Source of the DNA: Limnanthes douglasii subsp. nivea
Taxonomy: Eukaryota > Streptophyta > Magnoliopsida > Brassicales > Limnanthaceae
Reading direction: 5' to 3'
DNA: 64,000 nucleotides
NCBI GenBank assembly: GCA_036936605.1
Contig: JAUPFV010000001.1
Span: forward strand, 349,319,081 to 349,383,080
This document shows, in pieces, positions 22,375-57,444 of this stretch (position 1 is the first letter of the stretch; every line of letters starts with the position of its first letter). The translations under genes were made by a program, and so were the position numbers. The notes beneath the pieces were generated by a model. It was not told the origin of the DNA. It ran no database searches and saw only the letters and a list, made by a program, of their open reading frames with translations.

Positions 22375-25335
22375 TCAAGGTTGAGCTTCCTTAAATGGTC
22401 CAGCCTTATCTGGCTTCTTCTTTGGGTCTTTAGGTTCCTCGTTAAGGCTCTCTCTGGTCCCTTCATCTTCATCAGTAGTATCATCCCAACCACTGGAGTA
22501 GCAGTGCTTATCACCATCATCCATAGTATGGTGAGGAAGGTCTTCGTATTCCACAAATTTCGATAAATCTCCTAGTGTCCTCTTCGGAAATTTTTTATGA
22601 AAGAGCAGGACCATGTCTGATTTGACTTCAACATACATTTCCTCTTGGGAATCTATCACCTTGTTGGTGTATGCATCGATTCTGGCTTGGATTTTCTTTT
22701 CCTGCTCCTTGATCAAATTATCTTTCTCTTGGTTAACTCTAGACACAACATCTTTAAGCGAAATTTTGTCATTGGTTAGGGTCTGGATGACATTGTCTCT
22801 GGCCTTGACCTCCTCTTTTGAAGTGGAAATATTCTTCTCCAAGCCAGAACACTTAGATTAGAGTTCTTTGTTAACCCCCTCCGAAGTGGCCAGCTTGGTG
22901 GACAAATCCTCTTTCCCCTTCTTCAACTCCTCGATCTCTCTCCTTAATGCCTCAACATTCTGGTTGGCGTTAAGGAGGTCGTTAGACAAGCTCTATTTAT
23001 CTGAGTTGAGTGTGTTGATGAGGGTGGATTGATTTCACACTTGTCTTTCCAAGTTGAGAACCGGTTGAATATTTCTCAACAAGGAGTGGGTCATCATGCC
23101 CTTCTCTCCTGAAACAGAAAAAGATTTACCGTTGAAAGTGACGATGTTCGAAGAGCTTGGAGGGAGGTAAGGGCCAGCAAAGTCGTCCTTCTCAAGGTCT
23201 TCAAAGTAAAGGCGAATCTCCTGAAGACCATTGATTTTTACTCCATCAATGTTAATATCCCCTCCGGCACCCTCTCCGGTTTGAAAGTCACTTGGGATTT
23301 GCTCTGCTTGTGTTGGGTCTTTGGGTCAACCAGAGGAAGAGACTCCGGAGGCCGGAGAACTACTTCATCTCCCTTGGAGACTTTCTTATTCTTGGCTTCC
23401 CTATCTTCACCATCTGCTCCCCATTTTCGGTCTTTTTTGGGAGTCTATAAGGGTTCTGGAAGTCCAATTGCCTCTTTGGTACTCTCATTTTCCACCACTT
23501 GAAGCAGAGCAGCATAAATTCCTCCTTGGTCCTACACCTCCTGGTTTGCTGGGACAATCTCCTCAACACCACCTTGGGTGACCTCAGCTACATCTGGCTT
23601 TTTTCTTTCCTTTCCGGCCCTTCATTTTACTTGGGGCTTTAGCTCTGCCCGGCAAGGCCAACTTCCCATCCTTCTCATCTATCCTTTATAGAATGACACC
23701 CGGAGGAGGCGGTGTGGTAAATCCTCCCAAGACAAGTCTCTCCGGCCGGTTGTGTTCCAGAGGTGGGATCTCACCAGGTTGCCGGCAGTAAAACAATTGT
23801 GGAAGCGATTTCCCCATTTGTCAGCAACCCAAGCATTCAGCTTGGCACAAGTGTTCTGCCCCTCCTCAAAATAGTCGGAGAACTCCTTCGGCAGCACTAC
23901 CCAAAGAAAAAGAAGAGCATTTAAGTAAACAAACTTTTTATAAGGAAAGAAAAACAAACATGATGAAATATTAACCTGTGCTTTTCCATCTGTTGGTAAG
24001 CATGCTTGGGTTATCACCAGCCTTAATCTTCTTCTCATTTTCCCAAGCTCCACTAATGAACAAGAATTGGGTCTTCCAATTCTTCTCCGATTCGAGCAGA
24101 TCATCCACCACTTTATAATTATCACCCATATTGAAATGGTAGAAGGGGATGATGTGATTCTTGCAAAAGCTGGCCACAGTAGCAAACTGCTCCATCGGAA
24201 GCGGGATTCCGACGAGCCTAGAGGCCATGATGCAGGCCATGAGAGTGTACCAAGCATTGGGACTCAGTTGGCTTGGATAGAGCTTTACCAGATAGAAATA
24301 TCTGACGATCTCTGGGTCCAAGGGAAATCTAAGCCCCTAATTGAACAACTCTGTGTAGAAAACTATCTCACTTAGCTTGCAGACCATTGGCGTCTCCGGA
24401 TCGACCAGTATCCTCACTTTAACAGATTATGGGATCCCCCACTTCTTCCGGATCCGGCCTAATTCAGCAGTATGAATGAAGGCGTAGTTAGTGTTCTGCA
24501 TGGCTAGCAGATACTTTACACTCACCTTGTGGAAGCAAGGTCCCACTCTACCTTCTAGGACTCTGGCAGGTCCGGATGTTTTAAAAATAGCTTCTATTTA
24601 CCCTTACTTTTCTTGAAAATGACAGCCTCCCCCGTCTGCCCGGAGCCATCAGTCTCAAAAGGGGCTTCTTCAACACTGTCCTCCATCACATCTTCCATCT
24701 TCATGAAAGGATTGTCAGTTGTCTTTGGTGGATGAGTGCTGGTAGTTGGTTCAGCATCGTTTTTCTTTTGTGGTCTGGTGTTCGGCTGGGGCTCAGATCC
24801 GTAGGGTTCATTTCGAAGGCTTGTTCCGGTAGCCTCCGGACCAGACGATTTGTCCTTAGGAACTTTGATGGGTGCCTCTGACCCTATAGCTTTTTCCTTG
24901 GACCCAGACTTAGAGGGCCCTGATTTCAGAGACTTAGACTGTGGAGCAACAGCCTGGCCCTTTACTAAGCGTCCTCTTCGTCGAAGCGTTAGCTTTTTCT
25001 GGCGAATTATCAGCATCTGATCCCATGGCTATGAACGGAGAGGGTCTCTTTGTGCGTGTAACAGCTTTCTCCCATTCGACAGTGGGTTGTGACTCCTGAA
25101 CCGATGAGCCTGAGACGATGGGTGAAAGACTTGGTTGAAATAGCCTTCTGGGTTTGGAACTTCGAGCAGAAGATGAACCTCTATCAGGCTCTGAGTTTGG
25201 TGTTTCAGACTTGTCGATTGGAGAAACTAGAAGACCTACAACAATGCGCCTTTCTCGCTCGACTCTTTGTGCTTTCTCTAACTCCAAAAGATTAAGCCAC
25301 CCACCTTTTACAAGTGCGTTTCTTGCTGTAAACAT
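22375..25335 (-). pseudogene. Element A opposite-strand gene (aORF), two exons
   Basis: Exon 1 runs 25335-23976 and exon 2 23896-22375 (minus strand). The protein begins MFTARNALVKGGWLNLLELE, has a Pro/Ser/Lys-rich linker (PSKSGSKEKAIG, VMEDSVEEAPFETDG), then a domain with LRFPLDPEIVRYFYLVKLYP, SQLSPNAWYTLMACIM, PLPMEQFATVASFCKNH and WKTQFLFISGAWENE. After the intron come FHNCFTAGNLVRSHLWNT, a basic region, a coiled coil (EEVKARDNVIQTLTNDKISL...) and an acidic end DDTTDEDEGTRES. The domain resembles the Pfam family named 'putative gypsy type transposon' (from memory). Function unknown. Opposite-strand genes are known in some Tat elements. Frameshifts and stops break this copy. Confidence 0.8.
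23897..23975 (-). other. Antisense spliceosomal intron in element A aORF (79 nt)
   Basis: On the minus strand the exon end AAAAGCACAG is followed by GTTAAT, an AT-rich 79-nt tract, TTTGGGTAG, then exon 2 TGCTGCCGAAGG. Position and phase (after the first base of a codon) match introns in B, C and D. The splice signals are on the strand opposite the genomic RNA. Confidence 0.8.
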
Positions 25336-25430
25336 AAACTTACACCAGTAGGATTTTGAGAAGAGAGATAAAAGCTTTGATGTAAAGGAATGAGAGAGTA
25401 ATGAAAATGGTAAAACAGTGAAAAATGAGG

Positions 25431-25615
25431 TAATTTATACTAAAGAGACAAAAAGATACCCAGAAACCTAGGAGAATACGAAAAGATGAAAGTAATGATT
25501 GAAGACGGCGCTAACGTCACAAACATTAAATAAATAGGTTACTTTTTGGGATGAGTGGGAGCGCCGTTCTAGGAGAAAAACGGCTGGTGAGGCAAATCAG
25601 AAGGTAACACGTGTC
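25431..25615 (-). promoter_or_regulatory. Element A antisense promoter (G-box and TATA box)
   Basis: Minus-strand GTATAAATTA (25431-25440) lies about 100 bp upstream of the aORF ATG at 25335. The palindrome ACACGTGT (25607-25614), containing the plant G-box core CACGTG, lies about 270 bp upstream. Both have counterparts in C at nearly the same distances. Confidence 0.65.
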
Positions 25616-25756
25616 CCACGATCCATGGCAAAACCTTTGAACTTCTGAAGAGTTTTTCAGTCCGGATAAGTCCTTTACTAAATATTAAATCCATCCGGAG
25701 AATGTCATAAGTTCCCAAAAGCTATTTTTTAGGTCTTGCCAAAGGCCTTCGAACAA

Positions 25757-25775
25757 AACCTAAAAAAGGGGCTAC
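25757..25775 (+). other. Element A polypurine tract
   Basis: AAAAAAGGGGCTAC immediately precedes the 3' LTR. The same position in C reads AAATGGGCTAA. Confidence 0.85.
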
Positions 25776-26143
25776 TGATGAGTCTGGAAATTTTCACCAC
25801 TCATAGTAGAAACCGAACATGGGCAATTCAGACAAAAACCACCCACTGAACCATCCGAAATGGACAAAAGTATTAAAATCTAATCACTTTTTGACTAAGC
25901 TAATTGCTAATCTTCTTAATAAACTAATGAGTTTTTGAACTCGACCCGGTTTCATAAGTTTGACCCGAAATCTCATGTGGCCCATGATTAAGGGTATAAA
26001 TACCCAACCACTTTCATTAATGAGGGTAATGAACATTTAATATAACTCAAATCTCTCACTATAAAGCCCCCAAACATTAAATACCTTTGAAACACCATAA
26101 AACACCTGACAAAGTTACCCTCGGTCAAAAATAATCCACACCA
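25776..26143 (+). repeat. Element A 3' LTR (368 bp)
   Basis: Begins TGATGAGTCTGG and ends CCACACCA, with an intact TATAAATACC box near 25995-26004. Confidence 0.93.
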
Positions 26144-26460
26144 ACCCTTAATTCACATTTTTTACTTCGTTTAACCATTGTTTTGCAATTCACATTTACT
26201 CTTAATCCGCAACTTGAATTTATGAAAAAAACGTTTTTTTATCTTTAATTCACATTTCATATTTTTTTAATTCCTTAATATTTGTTTCACAATTCGCATT
26301 TACCATCGATTTGCATTTATGCTTTTGTTTACCCTTAATTCACATTTTGCACCTCCTTTGACCCTTGTTTTAAAATTCACATTTACTTTTGATTTAAAAT
26401 TCGTATTTTGGGAAAAAAAGTTTTTAAATTTAACCTCTATTGGTTTTCTTCACGATTCAC
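26144..26460. repeat. Minisatellite, right part
   Basis: Continues the 'CTTAATTCACATTT' and 'CAATTCACATTTACTCTTAA' type units seen before element A, starting with the ACCCT duplication. Confidence 0.7.
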
Positions 26461-26876
26461 AATTCACATTCATATAAAAACAAGATTAATAATTCCTTAA
26501 TATTCACAATTTGCGAGCCGAGTTTATATTTTTTCGTCATTCACAATCAACAATTCATAATTTTTTTCATCAACACCATAAGTTGTGATTCTATGGAAAA
26601 CTAAATAATAAAAGCTTTGTAAACCTATAATTATATTTACTATTGCATTCAATTTTTTTCATCACACTTTTTTATTCTTTTAGCTTCTTCATGCATATCT
26701 TTAAGTTTAAATTCGTCAATATCAACTGACACGTCTGGTATCTAGGTCTTATATCTTGTTTAACCGTCTCTATAAACAAATAATAAGCCCAGTCACACAT
26801 ATTCGCTCTAAAAAATTTGTGACCTAAAGCAGAATAACTTGAAAAATCATGACTTAAATCCTACTTATTATTGATA
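26461..26876. other. AT-rich DNA between elements A and D
   Basis: No gene or element recognised. Some decayed minisatellite words persist to about 26560. This is the former flank of copia element F before D inserted. Confidence 0.5.
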
Positions 26877-27275
26877 TGGTTTAAATTAGTATAAATGATA
26901 TCTAGGTAATTTTATGATGATGTAATAAGTGTGAGATAGATTATAGAGAGATAATTGAGCTGCTATATTTAACGTTTAGAGAGATAAAGTCTTAACCCTT
27001 TTAAATGATGTTCTTTAGAGCCTTTATAAACTATTTTGGAGTTAATTAGCCAATCGGGGCGGGTCATGAACATGGGTCAAATCCATAGACCAAAAAAATC
27101 CCATTAACCATTATTCATTATATATTTTCTAATAAGTAAAGATATAGAAAACACACAGCTGAGTCAAATGTAAAAGAACAGTGTAAATATATCATTTATC
27201 TTAGGTCTAAATTGCCCCCTCGAACAAATCTGACCCTATCACTGCTACCTCACTCAAATATATCTGATCCCATCA
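26877..27275 (-). repeat. Element D 3' LTR (399 bp)
   Basis: Collinear with 44643-45041: TTTAAATTAGTA, ATGATATCTAGGTAATTT, TTTAGAGCCTTTATA, ACATGGGTCAAAT and AGTAAAGATATAGAAAACAC occur in the same order and spacing. On the minus strand it begins TGATGGGATC. Confidence 0.9.
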
Positions 27276-27290
27276 CCTACCCCCCTTAAC
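27276..27290 (-). other. Element D polypurine tract
   Basis: The minus strand reads AAGGGGGGTAGG directly before the 3' LTR start. Confidence 0.75.
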
Positions 27291-27317
27291 CCTCTAAAAG
27301 GTATTTTGGAAGGGCTA

Positions 27318-27321
<4 letters not shown>

Positions 27322-27392
<71 letters not shown>
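27322..27392. repeat. (TA)n microsatellite, about 35 units
   Basis: An uninterrupted TA run between the element D polypurine tract and the antisense promoter. Its perfect state contrasts with the decay around it, so it probably expanded after insertion. Confidence 0.97.
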
Positions 27393-27395
<3 letters not shown>

Positions 27396-27537
27396 GAATC
27401 GAATTGATTCGTTGCTTCAAAACTGACTTTCTAGTATTTTTAAACCTGGGAGTGAACTTATTCGAACCACATTGGATGGTGTAGTTCAAAGACGATTACT
27501 ATCCAAAATTCATGGTTTTTAACCAGTTATTTTTCAA

Positions 27538-27765
27538 GACACGTGTCACTTTTTGATTTGTGTCGCGAATTTATTTTAACCTAGGTGAGATAAACCAATC
27601 AAATAAAAATTGTTTCCATTAGTATAGAGTTTCGTATCCATCATTAGTGTTTCTATTTCCTTAGGTAGCATATTCAAAAGTATTTTTTATAGTTTGTATA
27701 TAAGTTTCTATTCTATTTACTTCCTCTAGGGATTTTTAGATAAAGCAAATCTATACTCTAAATAG
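27538..27765 (+). promoter_or_regulatory. Element D antisense promoter region
   Basis: GACACGTGTC (27538-27547) lies about 328 bp upstream of the aORF ATG (27875) and is preceded by CCAAAATTCATG, which also precedes the same palindrome in C. A clear TATA box at the expected place is not kept; GTATATAAG at 27696-27704 and CTATACTCTAAATAG at 27751-27765 are candidates. Confidence 0.55.
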
Positions 27766-27874
27766 AGAAATAGTTCTTCACGGTTGATACTCAATTTACC
27801 ACACACGATCTTTTCTTTCCCTCAATAACTTCAATCACTGTGAATTATTTTTCCGGTGTCATCTTGGTGTTTAC

Positions 27875-30704
27875 ATGTTCACTACCAAAAACGAACTAAC
27901 CGAAGGTGGTTAGTTAAATTTGTATAAACTAGACAAAGAAAAGAAAAAGACAAGGGATCCTGGTGGGTTACATGTATCTTGTTGTACTTTCGTTCTAACT
28001 CTATCTATCGATTATGGACGGTTCTATCCTTAAAATAGACGTAACATTCCTTCTGAACCTTCCTCAACTTCTCAGTGGTTCACCTTACCAAGTCATCCAC
28101 CTAAAACACTTAAACCATCTCAATCTCAAGAGGCCACTAGCCGTCGGATTCCATATATCTTTAAAGTCACGGGTTCGTATTCTGAAGAGAACACTGCATG
28201 CAGAATAAGAAGACAGCCAAGAAACAAAGCTAGATAGTATGGGGAGAAAAGTCCATACGTGCAACAAACAACTTCCAACAATCCTCTCACACAGAAACCA
28301 AATTGAGAAGAAAACCTTACAACTCTCACAATGAGCTTCTACGAAATACGAATACGGAAGAAAATCCTGCAACACTAGCAACTGAGTCATCTCAACCTAA
28401 GAAAACTCCTCCTCGACCAAAAAATCAAGAGGATAATCTTAGCACTCAACCCCTTGAACGTTCAGGATCGGGTATGAGGGTAATGGAAGACGGTATGGAT
28501 GATGTCAGTGGAGATTCTCCCCTTGAGACATCTAGTCAAACCGGGGAGACTTCAAGGCCAATAAAACATAAAGATTTAAAGAACAAAGGTGGCCCCTTAA
28601 TACATAATCCGTAGCGCTTCCATCCTTTTTATTCAGACGCATCAGACCTAACTTTGCAAAGGTAAGCTCCAAATACCCTTTGGCTCTTGATAAAATTCCT
28701 TACATTTACTTCCATGATTTGGAGTTAGAGCCTATTCGGGCCAAATAGGGTTCCTTGAAGAAGTCAACGTTAAGGTTCCCTAACTTGGAGATACTCCGAT
28801 GAGCTGCACTGAGGAAGTTAGTGGTTTATACAGATCTTCTTAATTGGGGCTTCCAATTCCCTTTGAACCCTCAGATTACATCATATTGTAGCATACTAGG
28901 ATTATATCCGAGCCATGATAGTCCCAATTCCTTGTTTATATTAACGGCTTATATCATACCATCCATGCTATCAAAAAATCCGATGTTGATGGAGCAAATG
29001 GCTGATATTTCAGGGTTGTTTCTCAATACTCAAATCCGATTTTACTACTTCAACATGGGGAATGATTATAATGTGGTGGATGATTCGCTGGAGAAAGATA
29101 AAATCTAGAAGATAAAATCTAGAAAATAAAATTTCTCTTTATTATTGGTTGGTGTGAGAATGATAAGAAAATCACCTCCCATGGTAATCTGAGTCGGCTT
29201 ACTAGATTATGGAACAACAAATGTAGATACCTTCGAAATTGTTTTTGACCCTCTCTATTTTCTTTAAATATTTTTATCACGCGACTATAATTTTTCTTAT
29301 TTACCAGGCATTTCAAAGCTCTCCATACACCACCTGGCCGATGCAAAAGTCACTTTCAAGAAGCTGATCAGTGGGCAAAAGCGAAGTGGTCTAACGACTG
29401 TTATCAGTGCTTTATTTTCGTCAACTTCGTTAGAAGTCACCTCTCGATGCCTAACCCCGATCGTGAATTGACATGAGAGTAGTTTTCCAATCCTTTCCGG
29501 TCTTCTATTATTCTAAAAAGGACTAAAGCGGTTGACTACAAGCTATATCTCCCTAAAAGGAATAGACCTTCCAGCCATCTTGACAAAAAGGAGAAGAAAA
29601 GAAAGGAAGGTACCTCAAAAGTCTTTGTAGATTCTGGAACCAAGGAGAAACTGAATGAAATTGACGAGACCTTTCTTGTTACTGTCGCTGCTACTATTGA
29701 AGGAGACAATATGCCTACAAAGAATAAGACACATAAGAAAATAAAACATGGCAGTGGCAAAAGAAAGAAGGAAAGGAAAAAAACCTTGACTAATTCGGAG
29801 ATCGTATTACGTTTCAATATCATACCTCCAACAATTCCCCATACCAAACCTTCTATTCATCCCCCACATTACAGTATCTGAAGCAGCCTTTCTACTTCTT
29901 CCCACATTTGATGGCCAAACCACTATGGAAGACCCAATAGGGGACACTGAAGGATGATTTCGAGACATTTGAGAAAGATTTCCAATAATCTACAAGCAAC
30001 GCCACCAATGTGGTGTTCGATGGTGTAACCTTTGAGTTGTCAAATGAAACTAATATGTTGGGATATTCAATGTTGGGTTATGTGAAGCCCATTATCGAGC
30101 TATGAAGGGAAGTAAGATCCATAGAGGAGCTATTGCTTCTCTTCAAGAGGAAAATAAAAAGCAGAAGGCCTCCATTGAAAAGGAAAAGGCTAGGGCTAAC
30201 CGTGCATCCGAGAAAGTCAAATCACTCACAATATAAGTGGGCAGAGCAAATGCTAACTATAAAAAGCTTCTGGCATCTAGCTATGGAGATATCAGTTCAC
30301 CGAATAATCAGCAAGCTACTAAAAATGGAACCATTAAATGTTTCTTGGGAGAGAAAAACAATCAAAAGACTCTTGTCAATAGATAAAAATATGAATTATC
30401 TTCTCATAAGGCGACATGCAAACAAAATGTGGATGACGCGATGGATGCATATGCCGATGTGGTTTTAGATTCTCTTAAAAAACATGATGTCTCAATCAAG
30501 TCAGATATGATGTTGGAATTTCATAAGAAATTCTCTATCTTGGTCCAGGGATCTTTGTGGGGACTGGTCCCAGATAACCTGTTTCCTCCAGATATGCCCA
30601 TAACTGATCAGCTATGGATTTTTAAAGACTTACCCAATAATGGTTCAGATGACAACGGTGAAAGGGCCTCCAGAAGTGGGAGTTCAGAAGAAGTAGATGA
30701 GTAA
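27875..30704 (+). pseudogene. Element D opposite-strand gene (aORF), two exons
   Basis: The start reads MFTTKNELTEGG (27875), matching MFTARN in A and C. Exon 1 includes the acidic linker (VMEDGMDDVSGDSPLETSS, 28303-28614) and the domain at 28821-29108: LLNWGFQFPLNPQITSYCSI, LMEQMADISGLFLNT, IRFYYFNMGNDYNVVDDSLE. The intron is 29223-29307. Exon 2 begins AFQSSP-like and has NFVRSHLSMPNPDREL. Further on are a Lys-rich region, VKPIIEL-like sequence, a coiled-coil part and the end SIKSDMMLEFHKKFSILVQG (30429-30704). It is the most diverged copy and contains many stops and shifts. Function unknown. Confidence 0.72.
29223..29307 (+). other. Antisense intron in element D aORF (85 nt)
   Basis: The exon end AACAACAAAT is followed by GTAGAT, a T-rich tract, TTTACCAG, then GCATTTCAAAGC. 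The 25 bases before the donor align gap-free with those before A's donor (both start CTTAC), and the 30 bases after the acceptor align gap-free with C to ACCTGG. Confidence 0.68.
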
Positions 30705-30989
30705 AAAACTGATGGGAATGAGCCCAAAGGTCAATAGTTTTAAATTTTTTGGTATTGTGCAAGTCCTTGCTCTATACAAGGCATTTTGTGATAACGGGTC
30801 AGAAATTTGTGTAAGTCTTTGGTAATGCCAAAACTATTTTTTTTTGTTTTTCTACTTGGGTTTTATCAAGTCTTTGGGTTTCCTAAGGCGTTTTGTAATT
30901 GCTACTCATTTTAACAAATTTAATTTACTTCTTTGCATCTTTTTATTTTCATTCTTTAATCCATTTTACTCGAAGGAAACAAATTAATA

Positions 30990-31545
30990 CATAAGACATT
31001 GAAAGGTAATCCATTTGGAGGAATATAAAATTTGACACGTACAAGACATTCATCCATTCAAAGGCATACAAAATCTTAACATACCAAAGTTATTTGAAGG
31101 TAATCCATTTGAAGGCATACAAAATTTAACATACCAAAGCCATTCGAAGGTAATCCATTCAAAGGCATACAAAATTTAACATATCAAAGCCATTCAGAGG
31201 TAATCTATTTTAAGGCATACAAAACTTAACATATACAATCTATTCAAAGGTAATCCATATGAATGCATACAAAAATTAACATATCAAAGCCATTTGAAGG
31301 TAATCTATTCAAAGGCATATAAAAATTAACATACACAAGCCATTCGAAGGTAATCATTCGAAGGCAAACAAAACTTAACATATCAAAGCCATTCGAAGGT
31401 AATCCATTCGAAGGCATACAGAACTTATCATATCAAAGACATATGAAGGTAATCAATTAATATGCATACAAAACTTAACATATCAAAGCCATTCAAAAGT
31501 AATCCATTTGAAGTCATACAAAACTTAACATACACAAATTTTAAT
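30990..31545 (-). repeat. Tandem repeats of about 50 bp in the element D spacer
   Basis: About 11 diverged units of the type AAGGTAATCCATTTGAAGG, then CATACAAAA, TTAACATA and AAAGCCATTC. A typical unit is 50 bp. The array lies between the pol end and the aORF end of D. Tat elements are known to carry tandem repeats in this part, which can seed satellite DNA. Confidence 0.88.
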
Positions 31546-31576
31546 GGAAAAATATAGATTAATAATGATTTAGATA

Positions 31577-31677
31577 CCTCGTTAAAAACTCCGCGAACCA
31601 CTAGGGTAGGAAAAAATATGCCCCCAAATATTTACATTAAAAACAGGGTAAATATTTACAATGTATATTTACTAGTA
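31577..31677 (-). other. Element D post-pol fragment
   Basis: CTAGGGTAGGAAAAAATATGC and the nearby 'AAATATTTAC' words match the spacer just after pol in A (21850-21930, reverse strand) and C (57530-57640). It marks where D resumes after inserted element B. The adjoining integrase C-terminus is missing. Confidence 0.75.
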
Positions 31678-34057
31678 TGGATCCCAACCTCAACCGGACA
31701 CCAGGCCTTCAGAAACAACAGGTGCTCATTCATCCGAACAACCTTTGGTGCCAGAAGCTGATCCCCCCATCCAAGGAAATTGATAAACCTTCCACAGTGA
31801 TGTAAGAAGTAATGGAAGACAGTCTCGAAGGGACTCCCTTCGAAACTAAAGCATCAGGTCAAACTGGGGATGCTGCTTCTGACAGGAAGGGTAAAGGAAA
31901 AGTCAAGGTATGCTTGATCCATCCAGAGCTTCCAGAATGCCTATAGGGCAAGGTAGGCCCTTGCTTCAAAAATGTCACTATTAAATATATGCTAGCTCTT
32001 CAAAACATTAACTATGTCGACACTCATACTGCTGAGTTGGGCCGGATCCAGACGAAACGAGGGATCCCAGAGTCAATGATGGTAAGGATACCTGTCACTC
32101 AGAAGACTCCGATGGACTGTAAACTCAATGAGGTGGTCATCTTCACTGAGGTGCTAAAGTGGGGACTTCGGTTCCCATTAGACCTAGAAATTGTCAGGTA
32201 TGTCCACCTGGTAAAGCTCTGCCCAAGCCAACTAAGCCCAAACGCCTGGTATTCTCTCCTTGCTTGCATAATGGAATCAAGGTTGTGCAAAATCCCTCTC
32301 CCAATGGAGAAATTTTCCGCTGTGGCAAGTCTATGCAAGAATCACCACATTCCATTCTACCATCATAATACGAGGAATGATTTCAAGGTGGTAGATGACT
32401 TACTAGAGTCTGAGAAGAACTGGAGGACACAGTTCCTGTTGATCAGTGGCTCATGGGAGAATGGTAGAAAAATCAAGGACAACACCAATCCTAGTATGTT
32501 AACTAGCAGATGGAAGAGTACTGGTAAGTTTTTTATCTTTATTTTTCATGTTCTTCTTTTTAACTCATAAGTATTGCTCTCTTAATGTATGTGTTACTTA
32601 TTTTTCAGTGATGCCGAAGGAGTTCACCAAACACCTGGAGGAGGGGCAAACAACATGTGCCAAACATAATGCATGGGTTGCAGAGCGTTGAGGGAATTCC
32701 TTTCACAATTGCTTCACCTCAGACAATCTTGTGAGGTCCCATCTGTGGAACACCATAGGTTGGAGGGACCTCACATGGGAAGAGCTAACTACGCCGCCTC
32801 CACCTGGTGTGATTCTCAAGTGAATGGAGGCCAAAGATGGTAAATTGGCCTTACTTTCCAGGGCCAAAGCTCCCAGCAAGATGATAGAGAAGAAGAAGAA
32901 AGCTGCAGCAGAGCCGGTCCAAGCTGCCACAGAGGGGACTCGTTCGGGGAACCCAGGGGGAATCGATGCTTCCTTGCTTAAAGTAGTAGAGGCTGAGATT
33001 GTTAGGGAGGCAGGAGAATCACAAAACCCACCAAAGCCTCCTAAAAAGGACCGGAAGAGAAGAGCAAGAAGTGACGAAAAGGCTGCCAAGAAGAAAAAGG
33101 TCACCTTAGGAGAAGAAATAATTCTTCGTCCTTCGTAGCTTCTACTTCCACCAGCCCCTGTCGATCCCACTCTACAAGAGACGATCCCAATAGATCTGCA
33201 ATACAGAGAGGGTACTAGGGGAGGGATTGAAGGAATGGACATTACTGCCCTTCAAGACATTGATTTATACTTCAATGACTCTGAGAAGGATGATTTTGCA
33301 GGTCTCTTCCGCCCTTCGAGCTCTGCTAACATGGTGACCTATAATGGTAAGCCTTTCTCCATTTCCAGAGAACAAGATGTTGTGGCCCATTCCCTTCTTG
33401 GTCATATCCAACCAGTACTTGACCTGGAGAGACAAGTGAAAAGCTAGACCACACTCATCAATACCTTCACTATGGACAAAGAGTCTCTGTCAACCAATTT
33501 TCTCAATGCCAATCAAAGCATAGAAGAACTGAAGAAAGAGATGGAAGCTCTAAGGAAGGACAATGAAGATCTATCAACCAAGCTGGCCACTTCGGAGACT
33601 GCCAGTACTGAGCTCCAAAATATGTGCTCCGATTTGGAAAAGGATCTCACAACATCAAGGGAGGACCTGAAGACCAAAGATGGTGTTATTCAAGCCTTGT
33701 CCGATGAGAAGACTTCCCTCGAAAGTATTGTGTCTAAGATGGCCAAGGAGAAAGAGGACTTGGTCAAGGAGCGAACAAACTATTCAGGCAAGCATTGATA
33801 AATATACCAACGAGGTGATAGACTCCTTACAGACAAGATATGCTGAGGTTAAGTCTGACATGGTACTGCTCTTCCATGAAACTTTTCCGAAGAGGACCCT
33901 TGGTCCCTTATGGAAATTTGTAGACTATGACGACATCCCATTTCATACTATGGTTGTTGGTGACAAGTACAATTATACCAGTGGAATAGATTCCACCACT
34001 GATGAAGATGAAGGAACTGGAGAGAGTTCGAGTGCCGAACTCAAAAGTCCCAAATGA
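31678..34057 (+). pseudogene. Element B opposite-strand gene (aORF), 5' truncated, two exons
   Basis: It starts inside the linker (GSQPQPDTRPS-like, matching GSEPQPNTRPQ in A) and is the best-preserved domain copy: VKYMLALQNIN-like, LRFPLDLEIVRYVHLVKLCP, SQLSPNAWYSLLACIMES, PLPMEKFSAVASLCKNH and WRTQFLLISGSWENG (31989-32523). The intron is 32524-32608. Exon 2 has FTSDNLVRSHLWNTIGWRD, a basic run KKDRKRRARSDEKAAKKKK (possible nuclear signal, 33040-33100), LLGHIQPVLDLERQV, a long coiled coil (33472-33790) and the acidic end STTDEDEGTGESSSAELKS. Stops at 32690, 32821 and 33136 and a frameshift near 33780 break it. Function unknown. Confidence 0.82.
32524..32608 (+). other. Antisense intron in element B aORF (85 nt)
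   Basis: The exon end GGAAGAGTACTG is followed by a consensus donor GTAAGTTTT, a T-rich body, the acceptor TTATTTTTCAG, then TGATGCCGAAGG. It is the clearest of the four copies. Joining the exons keeps the frame (KST then V-MPKEF). Confidence 0.88.
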
Positions 34058-35120
34058 GCTTTAACCCTTCTTTCTTCTATTAAGTCCAACTGATTCATAC
34101 TTGCTATCTCATTAGCCTGTTCGGAATAGTTATGAACCCTGTATGATGGTAGGGTAACTTCAATGGGGGTAATGGCATCCATCCCATACACCAAAGCAAA
34201 AGGAGATTCTTGTGTAACAGCCGATGAGTAGTTTGGTATGCCCATAATACTTCTTGCAGATAGCTTGGCCACTTCCCTACTGCCCCCTCTAGGTTCTTTT
34301 TTAATCCGGACAGAATAGTCATGTTAGCAAATTCAACTTGTCTGCTTGCTTGTGGATGAAAGGGAGAAAAGAAACAGTGTTGAATTCCTCCAAAGGCACA
34401 AAAATTCTCTATATCCTTGTTATCAAACCGGGGCCCGTTATCTGTGGTAATCTTCTGAGGAATCCCAAATCTGCAACATATATTGGATAAGATGAATTTT
34501 ATGACAACTTTTGAAGTGGTTCCTGCCAAAAGAGCTGCCTCTATCTATTTTGAGAAGTAACAATAGCAACTATAATAGCCCTACACCATCCGGACACCAT
34601 TGGCAGAGGCCCAACTAAGTCTAATCCCCAGCGAGCAAACGGTGTTGGCTCAGAAATCGAATCCATAGATACTACTAGTACATGAATTTCGTTGCCATAC
34701 CTTTAACATGGATCACATTTCTTCACCATTTCTTTAGCATTTGCCATTATGGATGGCCAATAGTACCCAACCAACAGTACTCTCCGGGTTATTGCTCTGT
34801 AGCCACAATGAGCTGACCCTTCACCATCGTGCCCCCAAACAACGTAGGAATGGTCTACTGAAAGATATTTTATAGAGCACTTCCCTTATAATAAAAAATC
34901 CACGAGCCCTGTGTTTAATTTTTTCTGGCTATAGCTTTATCCGGAGGTAAAACCCCATCAGAAATGTATTGAAGAAGGGGAAATCTTCAATCTCTACGCC
35001 GAACTAATTGCATACTGAAGCTTTCCTCCTCTTCCTTGTTCTGGCTTGACTGTATGGATGGGTATTCTTGTACATGAATCCAAGAGTAGGACTCAGAATA
35101 TGCTATGGTTGCCAAAGAAT
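34058..35120 (-). pseudogene. pol: Element B integrase, C-terminus deleted
   Basis: Minus strand. Zinc-binding part (HCGYRAITRRVLLVGYYWP-like, about 34820-34740), core GLDLVGP-like (near 34620), TTDNGPRFDNKDIENFC with the second Asp (near 34440) and RQVEFANMT carrying the Glu (near 34335). It ends LDLIEERRVKAHL at about 34058, where it is joined directly to the aORF 3' end. About 300 bp of integrase C-terminus and the spacer are missing compared with A and C. Confidence 0.85.
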
Positions 35121-35470
35121 CTCCCATCATATTTTCTAATCTAGGAATATGCTAATAACAAACACTTTTGAAATTGGCTGCCACCTCTTTAAGGATGAGT
35201 AAGTATTTGATCAGTTGTTCCTTCTTGGCCTCAGATTGACCTTCAGCATGGTAGATAAGAAGCTGGGAATCACTCATCAACCTAACTCTTTTAGACCTAC
35301 ATAGGAAAGTTAATTTAAGACGAGCTATAACTGCTTCATATTCAGACTCACTGTTAAAGGCTCTGAATCCAAAGCATATAGCCTCGTACATTTTATCACC
35401 ATACGGAGAGGTTAGGCAAATTCCAGCTCCATAACCCATTGTGCTTGATCCACCATCAGTTCAGACTACC
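35121..35470 (-). pseudogene. pol: Element B archaeal-type RNase H
   Basis: MGYGAGICLTSPYGDKMYEA, FRAFNSESEYEAVIARLKL (catalytic Glu) and RLMSDSQLLIYHAEGQSEAK (Asp), then KSVCYxHIPRLENM-like near 35130. The open part is 35152-35439. The first Asp motif (VWTDGGSSTMG-like) is just upstream behind a stop near 35465. Confidence 0.85.
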
Positions 35471-35472
35471 CA

Positions 35473-37170
35473 TTATTTTTTGGTTTTCCTTTGTGAAACT
35501 TGTTTAGAACTCCTATCCGGATGGAATTCTACCAGGAAATCAGCAATAGATTGAGCCTTGATAACAGTTCTTGGGGAGAAATCAATGTCATAATCACCCA
35601 ACTCTACTGACCAATTGGTCATCCTGCTTGATATGTCTGCTTTATGAAGAACATTCTTCAATGGAAATGACGTTCGGAGAACGATGGAATGAGATTGAAA
35701 ATACGGCCTCATTGTTTTTGCAGCAATCACTAAGGCTAGTGCCAGCTTTTCAAGCTTCAGGTACCTCTTCTCAGCATCTATCAGGATTTTACTAATATAG
35801 TACACCGGACGAGGGTAATTGTCCACCTCTCTTACCAATACTGCACTTATAGCGCATTCTGACACAACCAAGTATACATACAGTGTTTCTTTTTGTATGG
35901 GCTTGAAAAGGGTCTTTGGTGAGGACAAGTGTTTCTTTATCTCATCAAAAGCTTGGCTGCATTGTGGATACCAATTAAAGTCTTTAGCACTCTTCAAGGT
36001 TTGGAAAAATGGAGCACACTACACTGAGGATCTTGAAATAAAACGATTCAAGGCAGCCAACCTTCTAGTACGCCTCTGGACTTCTTTAATATTCCGGGGA
36101 GGATCTATTTCTAATAAGCAATTCAACTTATCCGGATTAGGCTGTATCTCTTTCTCATTTATTACATACCCCAAAATTTTTCCGGATCGAACCCTAAAGA
36201 CACACTTTTCTGGATTCAATTTCAAATTGACCATTTTCAGATTGTAAAAAGTTTCTCGAAGGTGGATTATATGCAAATAATCCTCTAAGCTTTTAATCAT
36301 CATGTCATCTATGTATACCTCCATAATCCTGCCAATCTGATTAGCAAATGTTTTGTTTACAAGCCTCTGGTAAGTAGCCCCAGCATTCTTCAACCCAAAA
36401 GGTATCACCTTAAAACAATGGAGACCCCTGTCCATAACAAACGTAGTATGATCTTGGTTCTTCGGATCCACCTGAATCTAGTTATACCCAGAGAAGGCAT
36501 CTATGAAGGACAACAACTTGTTACCAGACGTTAAGTCCACCAACTGGTTTATCCGGGGGCCGGATAAAGATCTTTTGGGCAAGACCTGTTGAGGTCACTA
36601 AAATCAATACACATACGCCATTTCCCGTTCTTTTTCTTGACCAACACTAGATTGGCAGTCCATAAAGGATACCGGGACTCCTTTATGTTCCCCATCTTGG
36701 TAAGCCGATCAATTGCTTGGACTATTACATTAACTTATTCTTTAGAGAAAGCCCTCTGATTCTGCACAGCAGGTGTAACATGACTCTGAATCGATAGTTT
36801 GTGAGAGATAATGCTTGAAGTCGTTCCGGTTACATCACCATTGCACAAAGCAAAAACATGTGGATTGTTTGACAAAAAGGATAACATTTCCTTCTTTAAC
36901 TCTGGCGCCATATTGGAGCCAACCTTAATACTTCTACCCTCTGCCAAGGGATGGGTTTCAACTTCTTGCACCGGCATTATAACACTATGGGCCTCTCTGG
37001 GGTCATCAATCTTACCCTCCTCCTCAGAAGGCCCCAGTAACTGCTCATTGATTCGAACTGCTCCCAAAGTTTTAGGAGCAAGTGCAGTTGCATATCACTC
37101 CCTTACTATCTTCTTACTACTTCGAACAACACCTTACTGTCCTTGAACCGTATACTTCAAACACTGATGG
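35473..37170 (-). pseudogene. pol: Element B reverse transcriptase and RNase H
   Basis: RT runs from the GAVRINEQLLGP linker (37067) through HKLSIQSHVTPAVQNQRAFS, LVKKKNGKWRMCIDFSDLN-like (about 36650-36590), HTTFVMDRGLHCFKVIPFGL and the catalytic YIDDMM (36304-36315 for YIDD) to RRLAALNRFISRSS (36019). RNase H follows (35997-35473): FDEIKKHLSSPKTLFKPI, LYVYLVVSECAISAVLVRE, YYISKILIDAEKRYLKLEK and AQSIADFLVEFHPD. Frame breaks lie near 36735, 36480 and 36010. Confidence 0.88.
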
Positions 37171-37171
37171 A

Positions 37172-37800
37172 CTATTGAGGCCACAACATGCATTCTAGAG
37201 AGCCAGGACCTCCCAAAGATTGCATTATAACATGTGGGCAGTCTACCACAACGAATAATACTCTGGCCAGCTTTTTAAAAGGCCCATTGCCCAACAACAC
37301 CTCTTCCTCAAATTCACCCATTACATCTGCAGATCTCCTTGTGAATCCCAAAATGGTTCGGTTTGACCGTTGAATAACGGCCGGATTTTTCATCTGCGTG
37401 TAAGAACTTAAAAAGATGACGTTTAGCGAATTGCTCGTGTCTATCAGAGTTCATCTGATATCATTGCCCTCAATAGATGCTCCTATCACCATAACATCCT
37501 CATGAGATCCAGCGATATTTCTTAAATCATCCTCATCAAAGACTATAAATAGAAAAGGGGTCTGTGACTGATAAGAAGACATGCCTCCCTCAAACTGAGT
37601 AGCCAGAGAGTGAACATGCCTCTTCTTTGATGAAGGAGTTGGCGCTGTCTTGGTATCCCCTCTGAATATAGTAAGTGACTCAAAGAAACTAATGAGTCCG
37701 GACACCGTCTTAGTTTGTTTTGTTATGGGTTGGATCAGGATCTAGGTATTTCGAATCAACATCAAATATTTCAAGGATTACCATTTCCCCCTCCGGAGTT
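37172..37800 (-). pseudogene. pol: Element B protease
   Basis: FFESLTIFRGDTKTAPTPSS starts the region (37705), then FIVFDEDDLRNIAGSHEDVM and GASIEGNDIR. The catalytic DTS-like site lies near 37440 (LIDTSNSLN reading, so the usual DTGS is altered). It continues MKNPAVIQRSNRTILGFT to VIMQSLGGPGSLECM. Frame broken near 37450 and 37170. Confidence 0.75.
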
Positions 37801-42420: not shown

Positions 42421-42990
42421 TTGGATAATCTATCTTGTTCGGATTTTCGTTCCCTTGATAGATTCCCCTATTACCACAACATCTTTATATGAAACTGTAA
42501 TATTCCTTAAATTATCTTATAAAAAATTATGAAGGGGTAGGGTTCTAGTATAGATGAGAAGACATCTTCTATTTAATTGAGTGGTCAAACTAACCACGTG
42601 ACTTTTCATGGAACAACTTGAAGGATCTTTTATTGTGTCTCCTCTGAATATAGTTAACGATTCGAATAAGGATCTTTTATTGCGTCTCCTCCGAATATAG
42701 TTAACGATTCGAATAATTGACACAACTTGGAAACCCTTCTATTATTCTCAGTTACCACATTCACACGACCCTGATCCAGATCAGGATCTAAGTATTCTGA
42801 ATCCACATCAGATTGTTCAATAATCACCATTATAATTTCCTGTTTGAGAGCTTCGGTAGTTTTTCGTTAGGACAACAGGTGAAGTTTCCTAAACCCCATT
42901 TGTGTTTCGTTATGATTTGTTGTTTACTTTCCTGTTGCCCACTTGTGATTTAACAAAGATAATTAACTTATTATTTTCAGTAACTTATTA
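42421..42990 (-). pseudogene. pol: Element D protease region
   Basis: RSLFESLTIFRGDTIKDPSS and SHVVSLTTQL (42517-42723) correspond to the protease leader of A, B and C. A 47-bp tandem duplication (42621-42714) repeats the FESLTIFRGD coding part. The catalytic Asp region is not recognisable. Confidence 0.65.
42621..42714. repeat. 47-bp tandem duplication in element D
   Basis: AAGGATCTTTTATTG starts both copies (42621 and 42668). They differ at two or three positions, so the duplication arose late relative to the decay of D. Confidence 0.85.
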
Positions 42991-44614
42991 TTTTCAGTTA
43001 ACGATTATATCTCTTAATTTAAAGCAATAAATCCTTAGTATCCTATATCATTACGGTACTTACAGAATCGTGTGTTGCAATTTCCCTCGAATTTTGGATA
43101 GGTGCAGGCCTTCGGATTTGCCCAAAATTCTTTGACCTATTATAAATAGTTGCAACATTTTCAATTAGCTCTGCAAAATAACTAGGCTGAACCTACTGAT
43201 TCGCTCTTTGCCTAGCTCAATATCCTTGATTAGACTGGCTCAGTCTTGGCAGATGAGAACCCTTTCCGGAGTCCCTCGATGATTGCTAACCGTACCTTGG
43301 GACTGGCTACTTGCTTGTGGAAGCGGGTTTGAAAGAGCAAGTTTATATTGATGCGTCTGTCTTAATCTTTAGTTTCCTTCACAGTGATTTTATTTACAAC
43401 TTGGTTTAATAAACCAACTCAGGTCATTGCCTTCTTACAAGTCACTGATTCAACCAACTCACTAGTTAAAAGTCCTTGTCTGAGGGCAGCTATATCCACA
43501 TGTTCGAAGCAGTCTGCCAACCCATCTTTGGTGTTCATAAAATGTTGGTTATAATTTTTTATGATTCGTTAGGGTGTTACAAACAATGGATGATTATATA
43601 TCTATTCCCTCTAAGTTCTTTACTTCCCACAAATTATCTTCGGAATACCATCCAAAACATATTAAAAAAATTATTGATCCTTGCGATAATCTATTATACC
43701 ACTTCAAGACGTTATTTTTGAAAGTTAAAAAAACTGTATATGATAGCTTATCATCATCTTCAAAACTCATCATAGAATGCTTAAATTTCTCGAGATGGTT
43801 ATCAAGGTCTTGGCTCCCATAATATTTTTCCATTTTTGAAATGTCAAAACCATGGGTAGATGTCAAGAGAAGATTTTCAAAGACAAAGACGATTGCCTCC
43901 AATTATGTCCTTGAATGAACATGTAATCCTCATTAGAAGTGACAAAGATCCCAAGCTCGGAATGCATGACAAATTGATCATTTAGAAAGCAATCTATGCT
44001 ATGCTCATTTGACCCCTTCATATTGTCATGATACTCTTTCTTTTTTGCTTTACCATTTATGCCCTTTTTCTTTCCAGAAAACTCTTGCTTACTTGTTTTA
44101 TAGTGTTTTTTTAATATTTTTAGTCTATGTATTTCCTTTCTTTTCTTATAAGGATCATTGCTCGAAGAAGATGAGGAGACTTCTGATTATGTTTTTTATC
44201 CCTCGGCAGACTCCGAAGTGTTGAAATAATGTTTAGCTCAATGCTTATTTTTATATTATTGGTGGAATTTGGGGGACTGGTCATCTTGACCTTGCTTCAT
44301 ATTATGTTGGGAATTATTATCCAGATTTCAGATACTCCGATGGAATCCCCCTCCCCCAAATCCTTCACAGCATTTCTATGGGCTCTCAATGCTTCAATCT
44401 CGTAATTTGTTACACTTCTCTTGCATGAAAATCCTTTCTTCACTATCGTTATTCACATGAGATGTGAATACATGCTTTTCTTCGACTCTAACCTCTTATT
44501 TTAAAAAGAGAGAGGGGTGGGGGTCTATCTGCATATCATGATCCATACTTCAAAGAATTTCAAAGGTAATTTAGTACGTTAGGTTTTTAATATTTCTATC
44601 CGAGCACCTTACTA
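42991..44614 (-). pseudogene. gag: Element D gag
   Basis: The gag core is at 43594-43902: MEKYYGSQDLDNHLEKFKHS, LKWYNRLSQG. Downstream are remnants of NTKDGLADCFEHVDIAALRQ (about 43540-43470) and a Trp-Gly-Gly-Leu-Leu-Asn-like part (about 43420). The basic Ser-rich N-terminus (44220-44040) and leader (44500-44300) are barely readable. Stops throughout. Confidence 0.7.
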
Positions 44615-44615
44615 C

Positions 44616-44635
44616 ACTCCCACGGTGGTCGCCAA
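44616..44635 (-). promoter_or_regulatory. Element D primer-binding site
   Basis: The minus strand reads TTGGCGACCACCGTGGGAG, a few bases inside the 5' LTR end. Confidence 0.75.
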
Positions 44636-44642
44636 TCTTATA

Positions 44643-45041
44643 TGCTTTAAATTAGTACGAATGATATCTAGGTAATTTTGTGTTGATGTAATAAGTATGA
44701 GATAGATCGTATAGAAATAATTGAGCTGTTATATTTAATGCTTAGAGAGTTAAAGTATCAACTCTCTTAAATGTTGTTCTTTAGAGCCTTTATAGGCTAA
44801 TTTTCGGTTAATGGGCCAATCTGGTCAGATCATGGACATGGGTCAAATATATAGACCGAAAACACCCATTAAACATTATTAATTATAGATTTTCTAATAA
44901 GTAAAGATATAGAAAACACACAACTAAGTCAAAAGGTAAAAAATAGTATAAGTATATCGTTAATCTTAGGTTTAAATTGCCCCTTCAAAACAATCCAACC
45001 CTATCACTACTACCTCGCTCAAATATATCCGATCCCCGTCA
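44643..45041 (-). repeat. Element D 5' LTR (399 bp)
   Basis: Same length and order of blocks as 26877-27275. On the minus strand it begins TGACGGGGATCGG. Its outer end abuts the terminus of copia F's 3' LTR. Confidence 0.9.
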
Positions 45042-54192: not shown

Positions 54193-54197
54193 ACCTT

Positions 54198-54501
54198 TGG
54201 TGTGGATAATTTCTGATCAAAGAGTATTTTGGGAAACATTTTAGGGTATTTAATATTTAAAGTGAAATGTAGAGAGATGAAAGAGGTGTGTACTAGCAGT
54301 AAATTCCTCTTAACCTCATAAGCGAAAGTGGCTGGGGTATTTATACTAGAAACCCATAAGCCCAAGATAGGAAATGGCTAACAGCCAGCAGAGTCACAAT
54401 CCACTTGGTAGTACTGTTCAGTGGGGCATGGTACTGGATAGGTCTGAACTTCCATTTGGATACTTGTAGTAAATCAACGTCAAAGAATTCTAACCTCATC
54501 A
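54198..54501 (-). repeat. Element C 3' LTR (304 bp)
   Basis: Collinear with the 5' LTR but lacking about 51 bp just upstream of the promoter box (between TTTATACTA and GAAACCCATAAGCCC). TATAAATACC (minus) is retained near 54336-54346. Confidence 0.9.
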
Positions 54502-54515
54502 TTAGCCCATTTAGG
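54502..54515 (-). other. Element C polypurine tract remnant
   Basis: The minus strand reads CTAAATGGGCTAA before the LTR; A has AAAAAAGGGGCTAC at this spot. Confidence 0.65.
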
Positions 54516-54675
54516 TCTTGCAAATATACTTTGGAAGAGCTAATCTGAAAGAATAAAACTTAGTATGTATCCAAAGTGAAGTCTGATCTAGTATTGTATC
54601 CGAACTGAATCCTAACCGGATTCGAAGAGATTAATTTATAGTTATAAATTCCAAAATTCATGTTTTTTTAACTAT

Positions 54676-54850
54676 GACACGTGTCGCGTTTTGATTCTAC
54701 CTTTCAGTAGTGTTTTTTCCTCGGTTCATGTACCTACAGGCTAAAAAGTAACTTAGGGTGTAGTCCCCATGATTCCTAGCCCCTAATCATTATTTCTGAT
54801 CAATTTATCTCCCCTAGGTGAAACTCTCACCTCTTTCACCTCTATATAAA
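54676..54850 (+). promoter_or_regulatory. Element C antisense promoter (G-box and TATA box)
   Basis: GACACGTGTC (54676-54685) is about 255 bp and CTATATAAA (54842-54850) about 91-98 bp upstream of the aORF ATG at 54941. An A/G-rich leader with GAGAGAGAAAG follows. Spacing matches A. Confidence 0.68.
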
Positions 54851-54940
54851 CAACTTTTACGGTTTTAGCTCTCTGAGAATAGAAAAAATTCTAGAGAGAG
54901 AAAGCTTGATAATCTTTAAAATTTTGTCCGGGTAGATTAT

Positions 54941-57444
54941 ATGTTCACAGCTAGAAACACTTTGGTGAAAGGAGACTGGCTTAAATTATCCAATTTAGAA
55001 AGAGCAAGAAGAGATGCAAGAATCGTTGTTGGATTCCTTGCCTGTTCTGGTGGAGAAATTAGTCAAACAAGGCCAAACACCGACAAGAGCTCATCATCAT
55101 CAAAAGCATCAATAGTTTGAAAATCATCGTTTATCCCAACCCTATCTCCTTTAGAGTCAGATTCTTCAGTTCAAGAGTCTCAAAAGAATCTGCCTAAGGA
55201 AAAAAACAGTTTCCATTGTTAAGAAACCTACACTTTTTCTGGCTATGGGATCAGATGCTGAGTAGTTCCACCCCTCGAAGGGTTACCCGCCTTTGAAAAG
55301 CCAAAAGCACTCCTCCCTCTTAAGAACATGCTAGTTCGGAGACGATAAAGCCCCCAACAGATCCTAAACCGTCCGAACAACAATCCAACGTAATGGAGAA
55401 GATCATGGAGGACAGTATGAAAGACACACCCTTCCAGACGTCTAGAAAGATAGAAGACACCGCTCTAGATCAAAGAAACAAATGGAAAATGGGGCTACCC
55501 AACACTAAGTCACTTCCAGAGTGCCTGGAAGGGAAAGTAGGGCACAACTTTCGCAAGGTTAGTGTGAAGTATTTACTAGCTCTTCAGAAAATTTCTGATG
55601 TATGTACCCATACTGTTGAACTAGATCGGATTCGAACAAAATGAGACTTTCCTGATTCCGTTAAGGTAAGAATTCCAATCACTCTAGAAATCCCTACGAA
55701 CTGTAAGTCCCACGAGTTGGTGGTGTATACCGAAGTGATCAATTGGGGACTTTGGTATCCTTTGGACCCAGAAATAGTCCGGTATTTCCATCTGATAAGG
55801 TTATGCCCAAGTCAACTGAGCCCAAATGCATGGTATACTTTGTTGGCTGGTATAATGGCATGTAGACTAGAAAACATTCCCTTACCCATGGAGCAATTTG
55901 TTGTCGTGGCGAATCTATGCAAAGACCACCATATCTTTTTTACCATTACAATATGGGAAATGACTAAAAGGTGGTGAACAATCTGTTAGAGCCCGAGAAG
56001 CCATGTAGGACTCAATTTCTTTTTATCACTGCAGCATGGGAGAATGGAAGAAAGATAAACTCCACCACCAATCCAAGTCAGCTAACCAACCCCTAGAAAA
56101 GTTCAAGTACTATATGTTCATATTTTTATTAGATTCCTAATGTTAAGTTGATATTCCGAACTGAATATTGTGTCTTCTTGTAGTATTTTCAAAAACGTTT
56201 CCAGAGCACCTGGAAGTAAGCCAAGGCACCTGCACCAGGTTGAACGAATGGGCATAGAAGAAATCAGAATTGGGTTTCCATAACTGTTTTACTTCTGTAA
56301 ACTTCGTGAGGTCTCACCTATGGAATACTACGGGTAATAGAGACATTACTTGGGAGTAGTTGACCACTTTATATCCATCAAATATTATTCTTAAGATAAT
56401 TAAGGCTAAGGATGGAAAACTTCACTTGCCTTCCCGGAACAAAACCCCTACTCCTTGACAAGATCAAGAACAAGAAGAAGAAAACTACAGTTAACCCATG
56501 TCATTAAGTCTCCGAAGGGGTTGGTTCGGAGAATCAAAGAGGAATCAACGTCGCTTTGTTAGAGTTAGTTGAAGTCACAGTAAAGGAAACTGGTAGATTG
56601 GATCACCCGTCCCAGATTACAAAGAAAGATCACAACATGCGCAAGGAGGCCAGTGACCGAAGAGTTGCAAAGAAGAAGGAAAGTAGCTTACGGTTAAAGA
56701 TAGTACTTTGTCCTTTCGAACTTCCTCCTCCCATTCCTACTGATATTACTCCACAATAAGAAATTCCACCTAACCCTCATTCACCAACATTCCTACCAGT
56801 CGAACAACCAACTGCTGAAGGAGATGTTAATCTGGATGAATTTCAAAACATGTACTTTAGTGATCCGGATAAAGATGACTTCGAATGGAATTTTCCTCAT
56901 GCCACTGTGGCCAATGCTGTAACCTATAATGGTGAGTCATACGAGGTATCAAGTGAGCATGATACTCTTGAGTCATTCCCTTTTGGGTTATATCCGTCCG
57001 GTAGTTGATCTAGAGAGGCAAGTCAGGGAACAAACAAAAGACATAACTTCCTTCACCACAGAGAATCAGAACTTAAAGAATTCCCTTTCTTCCACACAAC
57101 AGAAAGTGGAAACTTTAGGTAAAGAAAAATAGGAGTTGACCAAGAACTCTTATGAGGATATAAAATCTAAGTATACCGGACTGGAAACTTCCACCTTTAC
57201 TGAGATCAAATCCTTGAAGGACCAACAAACTACCAATCATAGGAGATTCCTTTCCATACCATGGTGGATGGTGATAAGAATGGTTAATCGAGTGAAGAAG
57301 ATTCTAATAAAGGAACTGGTGAGAGTTCAAGCGCTAAACTCAAGAGTCCCACGAGGCCAATCACGAGTGTTTAATAAATGTGATCAAGTGTTTACTAAAT
57401 CTGGTCAGCTCAAAGATACTTCATTTGAGAGCCGAGGTGTTTAA
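54941..57444 (+). pseudogene. Element C opposite-strand gene (aORF), two exons
   Basis: The start reads MFTARNTLVKGDWLKLSNLE, close to A's. The linker has VMEKIMEDSMKDTPFQTS (55393). The domain has VVYTEVINWGLWYPLDPEIV, HLIRLCPSQLSPNAWYTLLA and PLPMEQFVVVANLCKDH (55717-55977). The intron is 56107-56183. Exon 2 has FHNCFTSVNFVRSHLWNTTG-like (near 56290-56340), a basic run, LLGYIRPVVDLERQVREQTK, a coiled coil and an eroded acidic end. Stops at 55118, 55642 and 56758 and shifts break it. A deletion in exon 2 shortens the coiled coil relative to B. Function unknown. Confidence 0.8.
56107..56183 (+). other. Antisense intron in element C aORF (77 nt)
   Basis: The exon end GAAAAGTTCAA is followed by GTACTATATG, an AT-rich body, TGTCTTCTTGTAG, then TATTTTCAAAAAC. 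Position and phase match A, B and D. Confidence 0.78.

Follow-up and report, generated by a model that had tools for sequence, protein, structure and literature searches.

A probable spliceosomal intron in the antisense accessory gene of Retand-type retrotransposons from Limnanthes douglasii

Introns are rare in long terminal repeat (LTR) retrotransposons because retrotransposition goes through RNA, and the question considered here is whether one divides a gene that runs opposite to gag-pol. The window, which is the whole stretch of DNA analyzed, comprises 64,000 nt of Limnanthes douglasii subsp. nivea (GCA_036936605.1, contig JAUPFV010000001.1, 349,319,081-349,383,080 of the forward strand). 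It contains four copies, A to D, of elements that appear to be Tat/Retand-type LTR retrotransposons, as assigned by layout and domain resemblance and not from a reverse transcriptase tree, and each of them has an opposite-strand gene with a short GT-AG interval. With a probability of roughly 0.87, this gene is a two-exon antisense accessory gene with a single U2-type GT-AG intron, which would be spliced to yield one protein and whose splice sites would be under selection. Selection on the splice sites in turn suggests that the gene has a messenger RNA (mRNA) of its own.

All four introns are in phase 1. In copy A, on the minus strand, a 79-nt intron (23897-23975, GTTAAT...GGGTAG) separates exon 1 (23976-25335), encoding an N-terminus that starts with MFTARN, a TRP28-like region, and a final RWKST, from exon 2 (22375-23896), encoding a conserved PKEF..HNCF..RSHLWN region and then a coil-like tail; stops and frameshifts occur in both exons. 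In copy B, on the plus strand, an 85-nt intron (32524-32608, GTAAGT...TTTCAG) lies between an exon 1 from which the N-terminal part is absent (31771-32523) and an exon 2 (32609-34026) that continues as a single frame with stop codons into the coil-like part and then changes frame. Copy C, on the plus strand, has a 77-nt intron (56107-56183, GTACTA...TTGTAG) between decayed exons at 54941-56106 and 56184-57444, the latter end being that of the original prediction. Copy D, also on the plus strand, has an 85-nt intron (29223-29307, GTAGAT...ACCAG) between decayed exons at 27875-29222 and 29308-30700, the last end being approximate. All four window copies are themselves interrupted by stops and frameshifts.

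The original prediction had located these introns exactly, with GT first and AG last and lengths of 77-85 nt. Its claim of a common position and phase is confirmed by a codon split after its first base in 4/4 copies and by GT and AG being invariant columns of the four-copy alignment. Its further claim of gapless flanks holds close to the junction and fails further up exon 1 of D, which has a 14-nt tandem duplication. Exon identity exceeds intron-body identity between A and B (0.70 and 0.57), B and C (0.64 and 0.41), A and C (0.61 and 0.47), and C and D (0.54 and 0.40), whereas in the other two comparisons with D the intron body is almost as similar as the decayed exons (A and D, 0.54 and 0.49; B and D, 0.52 and 0.51). 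The T content of the introns is 0.47-0.55 compared with 0.25 in exon 1, and U-rich introns are expected in plants. The introns of A to D very probably represent a real spliceosomal intron.

The gene was then followed through the host genome (1.78 Gb, 633 contigs). Searches used exon 1 of B, an A-type piece, and a C-type piece, and the best 150 of 75,412, 67,261, and 61,433 candidates, respectively, were taken, so that the counts are lower bounds. Ninety-six stretches were fetched, chosen by exon 1 similarity. One unrelated stretch (L046), four repeats (L038, L043, L001, which is window copy B, and L047, which is window copy A), and an apparent duplicate of L051 (L052) were left out of the alignment, which comprises 94 copies including A to D of the window. 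Five copies broken right after exon 1 (L013, L041, L066, L087, and L092) and two intronless copies (L034 and L036) were set aside before the intron counts. Among the 87 remaining copies, GT is present in 82, AG in 75, and both in 71. Both dinucleotides are kept in 28/29 A-type, 30/41 B-type, and 12/16 C-type copies and in the one D copy, and one of the copies counted as a miss, L091, is an alignment shift with CAG one base over. Intron lengths are mostly 75-91 nt, range overall from 64 to 91 nt apart from one 19-nt remnant, and fall into all three classes modulo 3. The remnant belongs to L071, which has lost most of the intron body but retains GT and AG. A search of the whole genome for both exon flanks at a suitable spacing gave 701 places, of which 624 (89%) also have GT and AG; the reversed-pattern control gave 0 in both cases. 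The flank patterns used in this search fit only A- and B-type flanks.

Selection was assessed on trees built by family for 28 A-type, 42 B-type, and 16 C-type copies (86 in total, from one genome), with changes placed by parsimony. Terminal branches represent the free decay of dead copies, and internal branches represent what active elements tolerated. Internal and terminal changes number 282 and 1078 at codon position 1, 212 and 924 at position 2, and 971 and 1730 at position 3. The intron body has 179 internal and 321 terminal changes and evolves like third codon positions (p=0.96), while constraint is seen at codon positions 1 and 2 (p=9e-39). GT has 0 internal and 7 terminal changes and AG has 1 and 10, i.e., changes in the two dinucleotides occurred almost wholly after insertion (1 internal, 17 terminal). 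Relative to the intron body, GT and AG are constrained at p=0.009, with values of 0.005-0.009 across two tree sets and ten seeds. When 12 columns of the body were drawn at random, 41 and 30 of 20,000 draws gave values as low as those of GT and AG. The greater conservation of GT and AG over the intron body, which the original prediction had proposed as a check, is therefore seen on the 86 copies. An occurrence of GT and AG by chance was considered as well, and was rejected on this tree test and on the genome-wide recurrence with zero controls.

The ratio of nonsynonymous to synonymous substitution rates (dN/dS) was computed for 18 of 22 stop-free exon 1 pieces, after one duplicate and three others had been left out. 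Its median is 0.12 between A-type copies (21/21 pairs), 0.08 between B-type copies (37/55 pairs usable), and 0.05 between A- and B-type copies (14/77 pairs usable, with dS near saturation). These patterns indicate that the protein on both sides of the intron is under purifying selection. Moreover, 65 of the 71 copies with GT and AG are not readable unspliced, owing to a frame-breaking length or an intronic stop. In the spliced phase, the median open length of exon 2 is 46 of 60 codons, compared with 19 and 25 in the other phases; exon 2 is fully open in 27/71 copies in the spliced phase and in 2 and 14 in the other two.

Two copies do without the intron. In L034 and L036 the frame is unbroken and reads ACT CAG TTG CCA and ACT CAG TTT CCA, respectively; the codon number equals that of the spliced form, and the junction codon differs. 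A 31-base pattern of the intronless junction has 59 genome matches at ≤3 mismatches, 3 of them exact, and the control has 0. The tree places both, surrounded by intron-bearing copies, within a small B subclade of 8 copies (support 0.57); they are not nearest relatives of each other, and the CAG scar that they share possibly reflects one loss spread by recombination.

The alternative that survives best, although it is very improbable, is that there is no intron, and that two separate antisense open reading frames (ORFs) are divided by a spacer that begins with GT and ends with AG by chance. More than one antisense ORF per element is usual, since a survey of such elements reports 104 of them in 63 representative elements (PMC11963269), and the donor positions after GT are unconstrained, as would suit a mere spacer. 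In contrast, this alternative does not account for a constraint on GT and AG next to an unconstrained body, for the continuation of the frame across the junction in the spliced phase, or for the intronless copies, in which both parts are joined in frame as one ORF over the junction. The spacer is also U-rich, as plant introns are.

A second alternative, for which even less can be said, is that an ancestral functional intron of a captured gene is now a relic, and that GT and AG persist through recent common descent. Many copies are indeed decayed, and 16/87 are without GT or AG in the alignment. Persistence by descent, however, would not produce 179 internal-branch changes in the body and 1 in GT and AG within families, nor would it readily explain why A to D all keep the sites while their exons are only 52-70% identical; the codons are constrained on the same branches. 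Least credible is the idea that an antisense RNA, regulatory or double-stranded, is selected rather than a protein and that splicing is incidental. A review does treat regulatory antisense RNA in elements of this sort (PMC7264820), but against this idea stand the codon-position pattern and the dN/dS of 0.05-0.12, which point to selection on a protein, and the preservation of the frame after intron loss.

Several observations weigh against a spliced two-exon gene itself. Six of the 71 copies are open through the intron unspliced, and 14/71 have exon 2 fully open in a non-spliced phase. No constraint is seen at the donor positions that follow GT or at the base preceding AG (14 internal and 12-13 terminal changes in 11 columns), and the test on GT and AG rests on 18 changes and parsimony in one genome, with copies picked through exon 1 similarity. 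A CTRAY motif, a candidate branch point, occurs 15-50 nt from the acceptor in 22/41 B-type and 10/16 C-type copies, but in only 2/29 A-type copies and 0/1 D; branch points in plants are degenerate. Some copies have lost the intron, so it is not indispensable. A search for the exact spliced junction did not find it, as its 12 matches at ≤2 mismatches are all of the intronless type; none of the copies thus resembles a product of reverse-transcribed spliced RNA. Finally, the TRP28 family Transposase_28 (PF04195) stays under its cut-off everywhere, and the piece from A scores better with DUF5737 (E 0.0026 against 0.032).

If the gene is spliced as proposed, an mRNA from the strand opposite gag-pol would have exon 1, with the N-terminal and TRP28-like regions, joined to exon 2, with the PKEF..RSHLWN region and the coil-like tail. 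The sense genomic RNA, in which the intron ends read CT..AC, would remain unspliced there, and each new insertion would thus inherit the intron; in this respect, the original prediction argues correctly that retrotransposition does not remove an opposite-strand intron. The product would be an accessory factor acting in trans and might be nuclear, as published work on Grande describes a nuclear role there (PMC7264820). Selection on the protein would maintain GT and AG while the lineage stays active.

Retand antisense genes: Antisense TRP28 ORFs characterize Retand elements and occur in 97% of surveyed clusters (PMC11963269). Among the 104 antisense ORFs counted there, 72 have known domains, 57 of these being TRP28, and 11 Smc are found among the other domains; these counts suggest that TRP28 and the other domains are mostly in separate ORFs in that survey. 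The gene described here resembles the antisense aORF/TRP28 genes of Retand, RIRE2, and Grande (gene23) in being antisense to gag-pol and between pol and the 3' LTR, where SMC and other domains are likewise encoded by antisense ORFs (PMC11963269, PMC7264820). It differs in that the latter are published as ORFs, whereas here the TRP28-like region, with its sub-threshold TRP28 match, and the coil-like tail would be two exons. The word "intron" occurs 0 times in the main texts of PMC11963269 and PMC7264820, the second of which, a review, asks that transcripts be examined for possible antisense and spliced forms.

Retroviral antisense genes: HBZ of human T-cell leukemia virus (HTLV) type 1 and the APH genes of HTLV-2 to -4 are also antisense accessory genes of retroelements with spliced antisense mRNA (PMC10186651). 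They belong to another element group, and no relation is claimed. Moreover, the spliced and unspliced forms of HBZ differ in the 5' untranslated region and at the beginning of the coding sequence (PMC10186651), whereas the present intron is in the middle of the coding sequence.

Introns in plant LTR elements: According to a 2025 review, plant LTR elements lack introns, with Ogre and EVADE as notable exceptions (PMC12786077), and the available text of a survey of plant LTR elements names introns for Ogre alone (PMC6317226). Introns are unmentioned in the available text of a sunflower study (PMC11728184). Like the present intron, those of Ogre, which is of the Tat lineage, and EVADE are within plant LTR retrotransposons (PMC12786077, PMC6317226). 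The EVADE intron differs in yielding subgenomic RNAs. In contrast to the Ogre-type sense intron, the present one is on the strand opposite gag-pol, as judged from domains in A and B and from DNA similarity in C and D, and in an accessory gene. A description of this antisense intron was not found in the literature searched, although a prior one is possible, as two key subscription papers were outside its scope. The antisense TRP28 genes of Retand are themselves already known, and the papers searched do not speak of an intron within them.

It is conceivable, though doubtful, that the intron is ancestral to the whole Retand antisense gene, entered as unspliced DNA or by antisense read-through, and was kept by selection for the spliced mRNA. 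If so, some antisense TRP28 and SMC-like ORFs of other plants would be two exons of one gene, and control would be strand-specific, with the full protein made only from the opposite-strand transcript and never from genomic RNA. An opposite-strand intron is the kind that could persist in LTR retrotransposons, and selection on its splice sites is a sign, readable from sequence alone, of an antisense gene being transcribed, spliced, and translated. Antisense ORFs without an assigned function would thereby become a concrete gene model that can be tested with existing strand-specific RNA data. The intron also bears on the origin of the Retand antisense genes and serves as a warning for annotation, as ORF-based surveys may split this gene in two.

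The spliced reading of the pieces gives one predicted protein with an N-terminal region, the TRP28-like region, the junction, the conserved region, and the tail. Transposase_28 scores below the cut-off in all four types A to D, with E values of 0.0075-0.069 (0.032 in A, 0.0075 in C, and 0.02 in D). Across A, B, C, D, L031, L035, and L036, its sub-threshold matches have E values of 0.0028-0.2 and 12.4-18.3 bits compared with a cut-off of 26.2. It has no match in L033 and L037, and the L034 piece does not span the region. The tail of L031 has weak matches to many coiled-coil families. A protein database search with the B gene gave 6190 candidates and 0 at E≤0.001, and tblastn found no relatives in the viral contig set and the genome contig set scanned. 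An AlphaFold model of an intronless copy with 22 relatives had a mean predicted local distance difference test score (pLDDT) of 43, was too poor for a fold search, and was not used. In L031 (170-2326, + strand), the 81-nt intron is stop-free, and exon 1, the intron, and part of exon 2 form an open frame of 719 codons; an unspliced mRNA there would yield a longer protein.

Element A (13283..26144, + strand) has LTRs at 13283-13659 and 25776-26144 that are 90% identical by BLAST. Its gag-pol is on the plus strand, with Pfam matches to RNase H at 19470-19991 and integrase at 20913-21506, and its opposite-strand gene is enclosed by pol and the 3' LTR. This region, measured from 21506, where the integrase ORF ends, to the 3' LTR at 25776, is ~4.3 kb and thus inside the range of 2.9-6.6 kb published for Retand elements, in which it is a property and not a definition (PMC11963269). 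Nested in the pol region of A is a fragment at 16299-18734 with flanking repeats at 16300-16824 and 18210-18734 that are 98% identical. We take this fragment to be Copia-like from its reverse transcriptase motifs.

The gag-pol region of B (34054..38965) is on the minus strand, opposite to the B gene, with Pfam matches to reverse transcriptase at 36019-36477 and RNase H at 35473-36018; no second LTR for B was found by BLAST. B is a rearranged copy, with the 5' part rearranged and exon 1 lacking its N-terminal part. Upstream of this truncated exon, a 50-bp tandem repeat in about ten copies occupies 30957-31540, and it is followed by sequence that in A sits between pol and the 3' end of the antisense gene. 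Element D (26874..45036, - strand) has LTRs at 26874-27271 and 44640-45036 that are 85% identical, and its gag-pol is placed on the minus strand by DNA similarity. From the order of BLAST matches, B appears to be nested within D and to interrupt it. Element C (54196..63230, - strand) has LTRs at 54196-54499 and 62876-63230 that are 75% identical, and its antisense gene, on the plus strand, is between pol and the 3' LTR. Its gag-pol is placed on the minus strand through DNA similarity to A and B, and the single C piece scanned gave no Pfam hit. Beyond C, a palindrome-like stretch of 338 nt (63543-63880) matches its own reverse complement at 70%.
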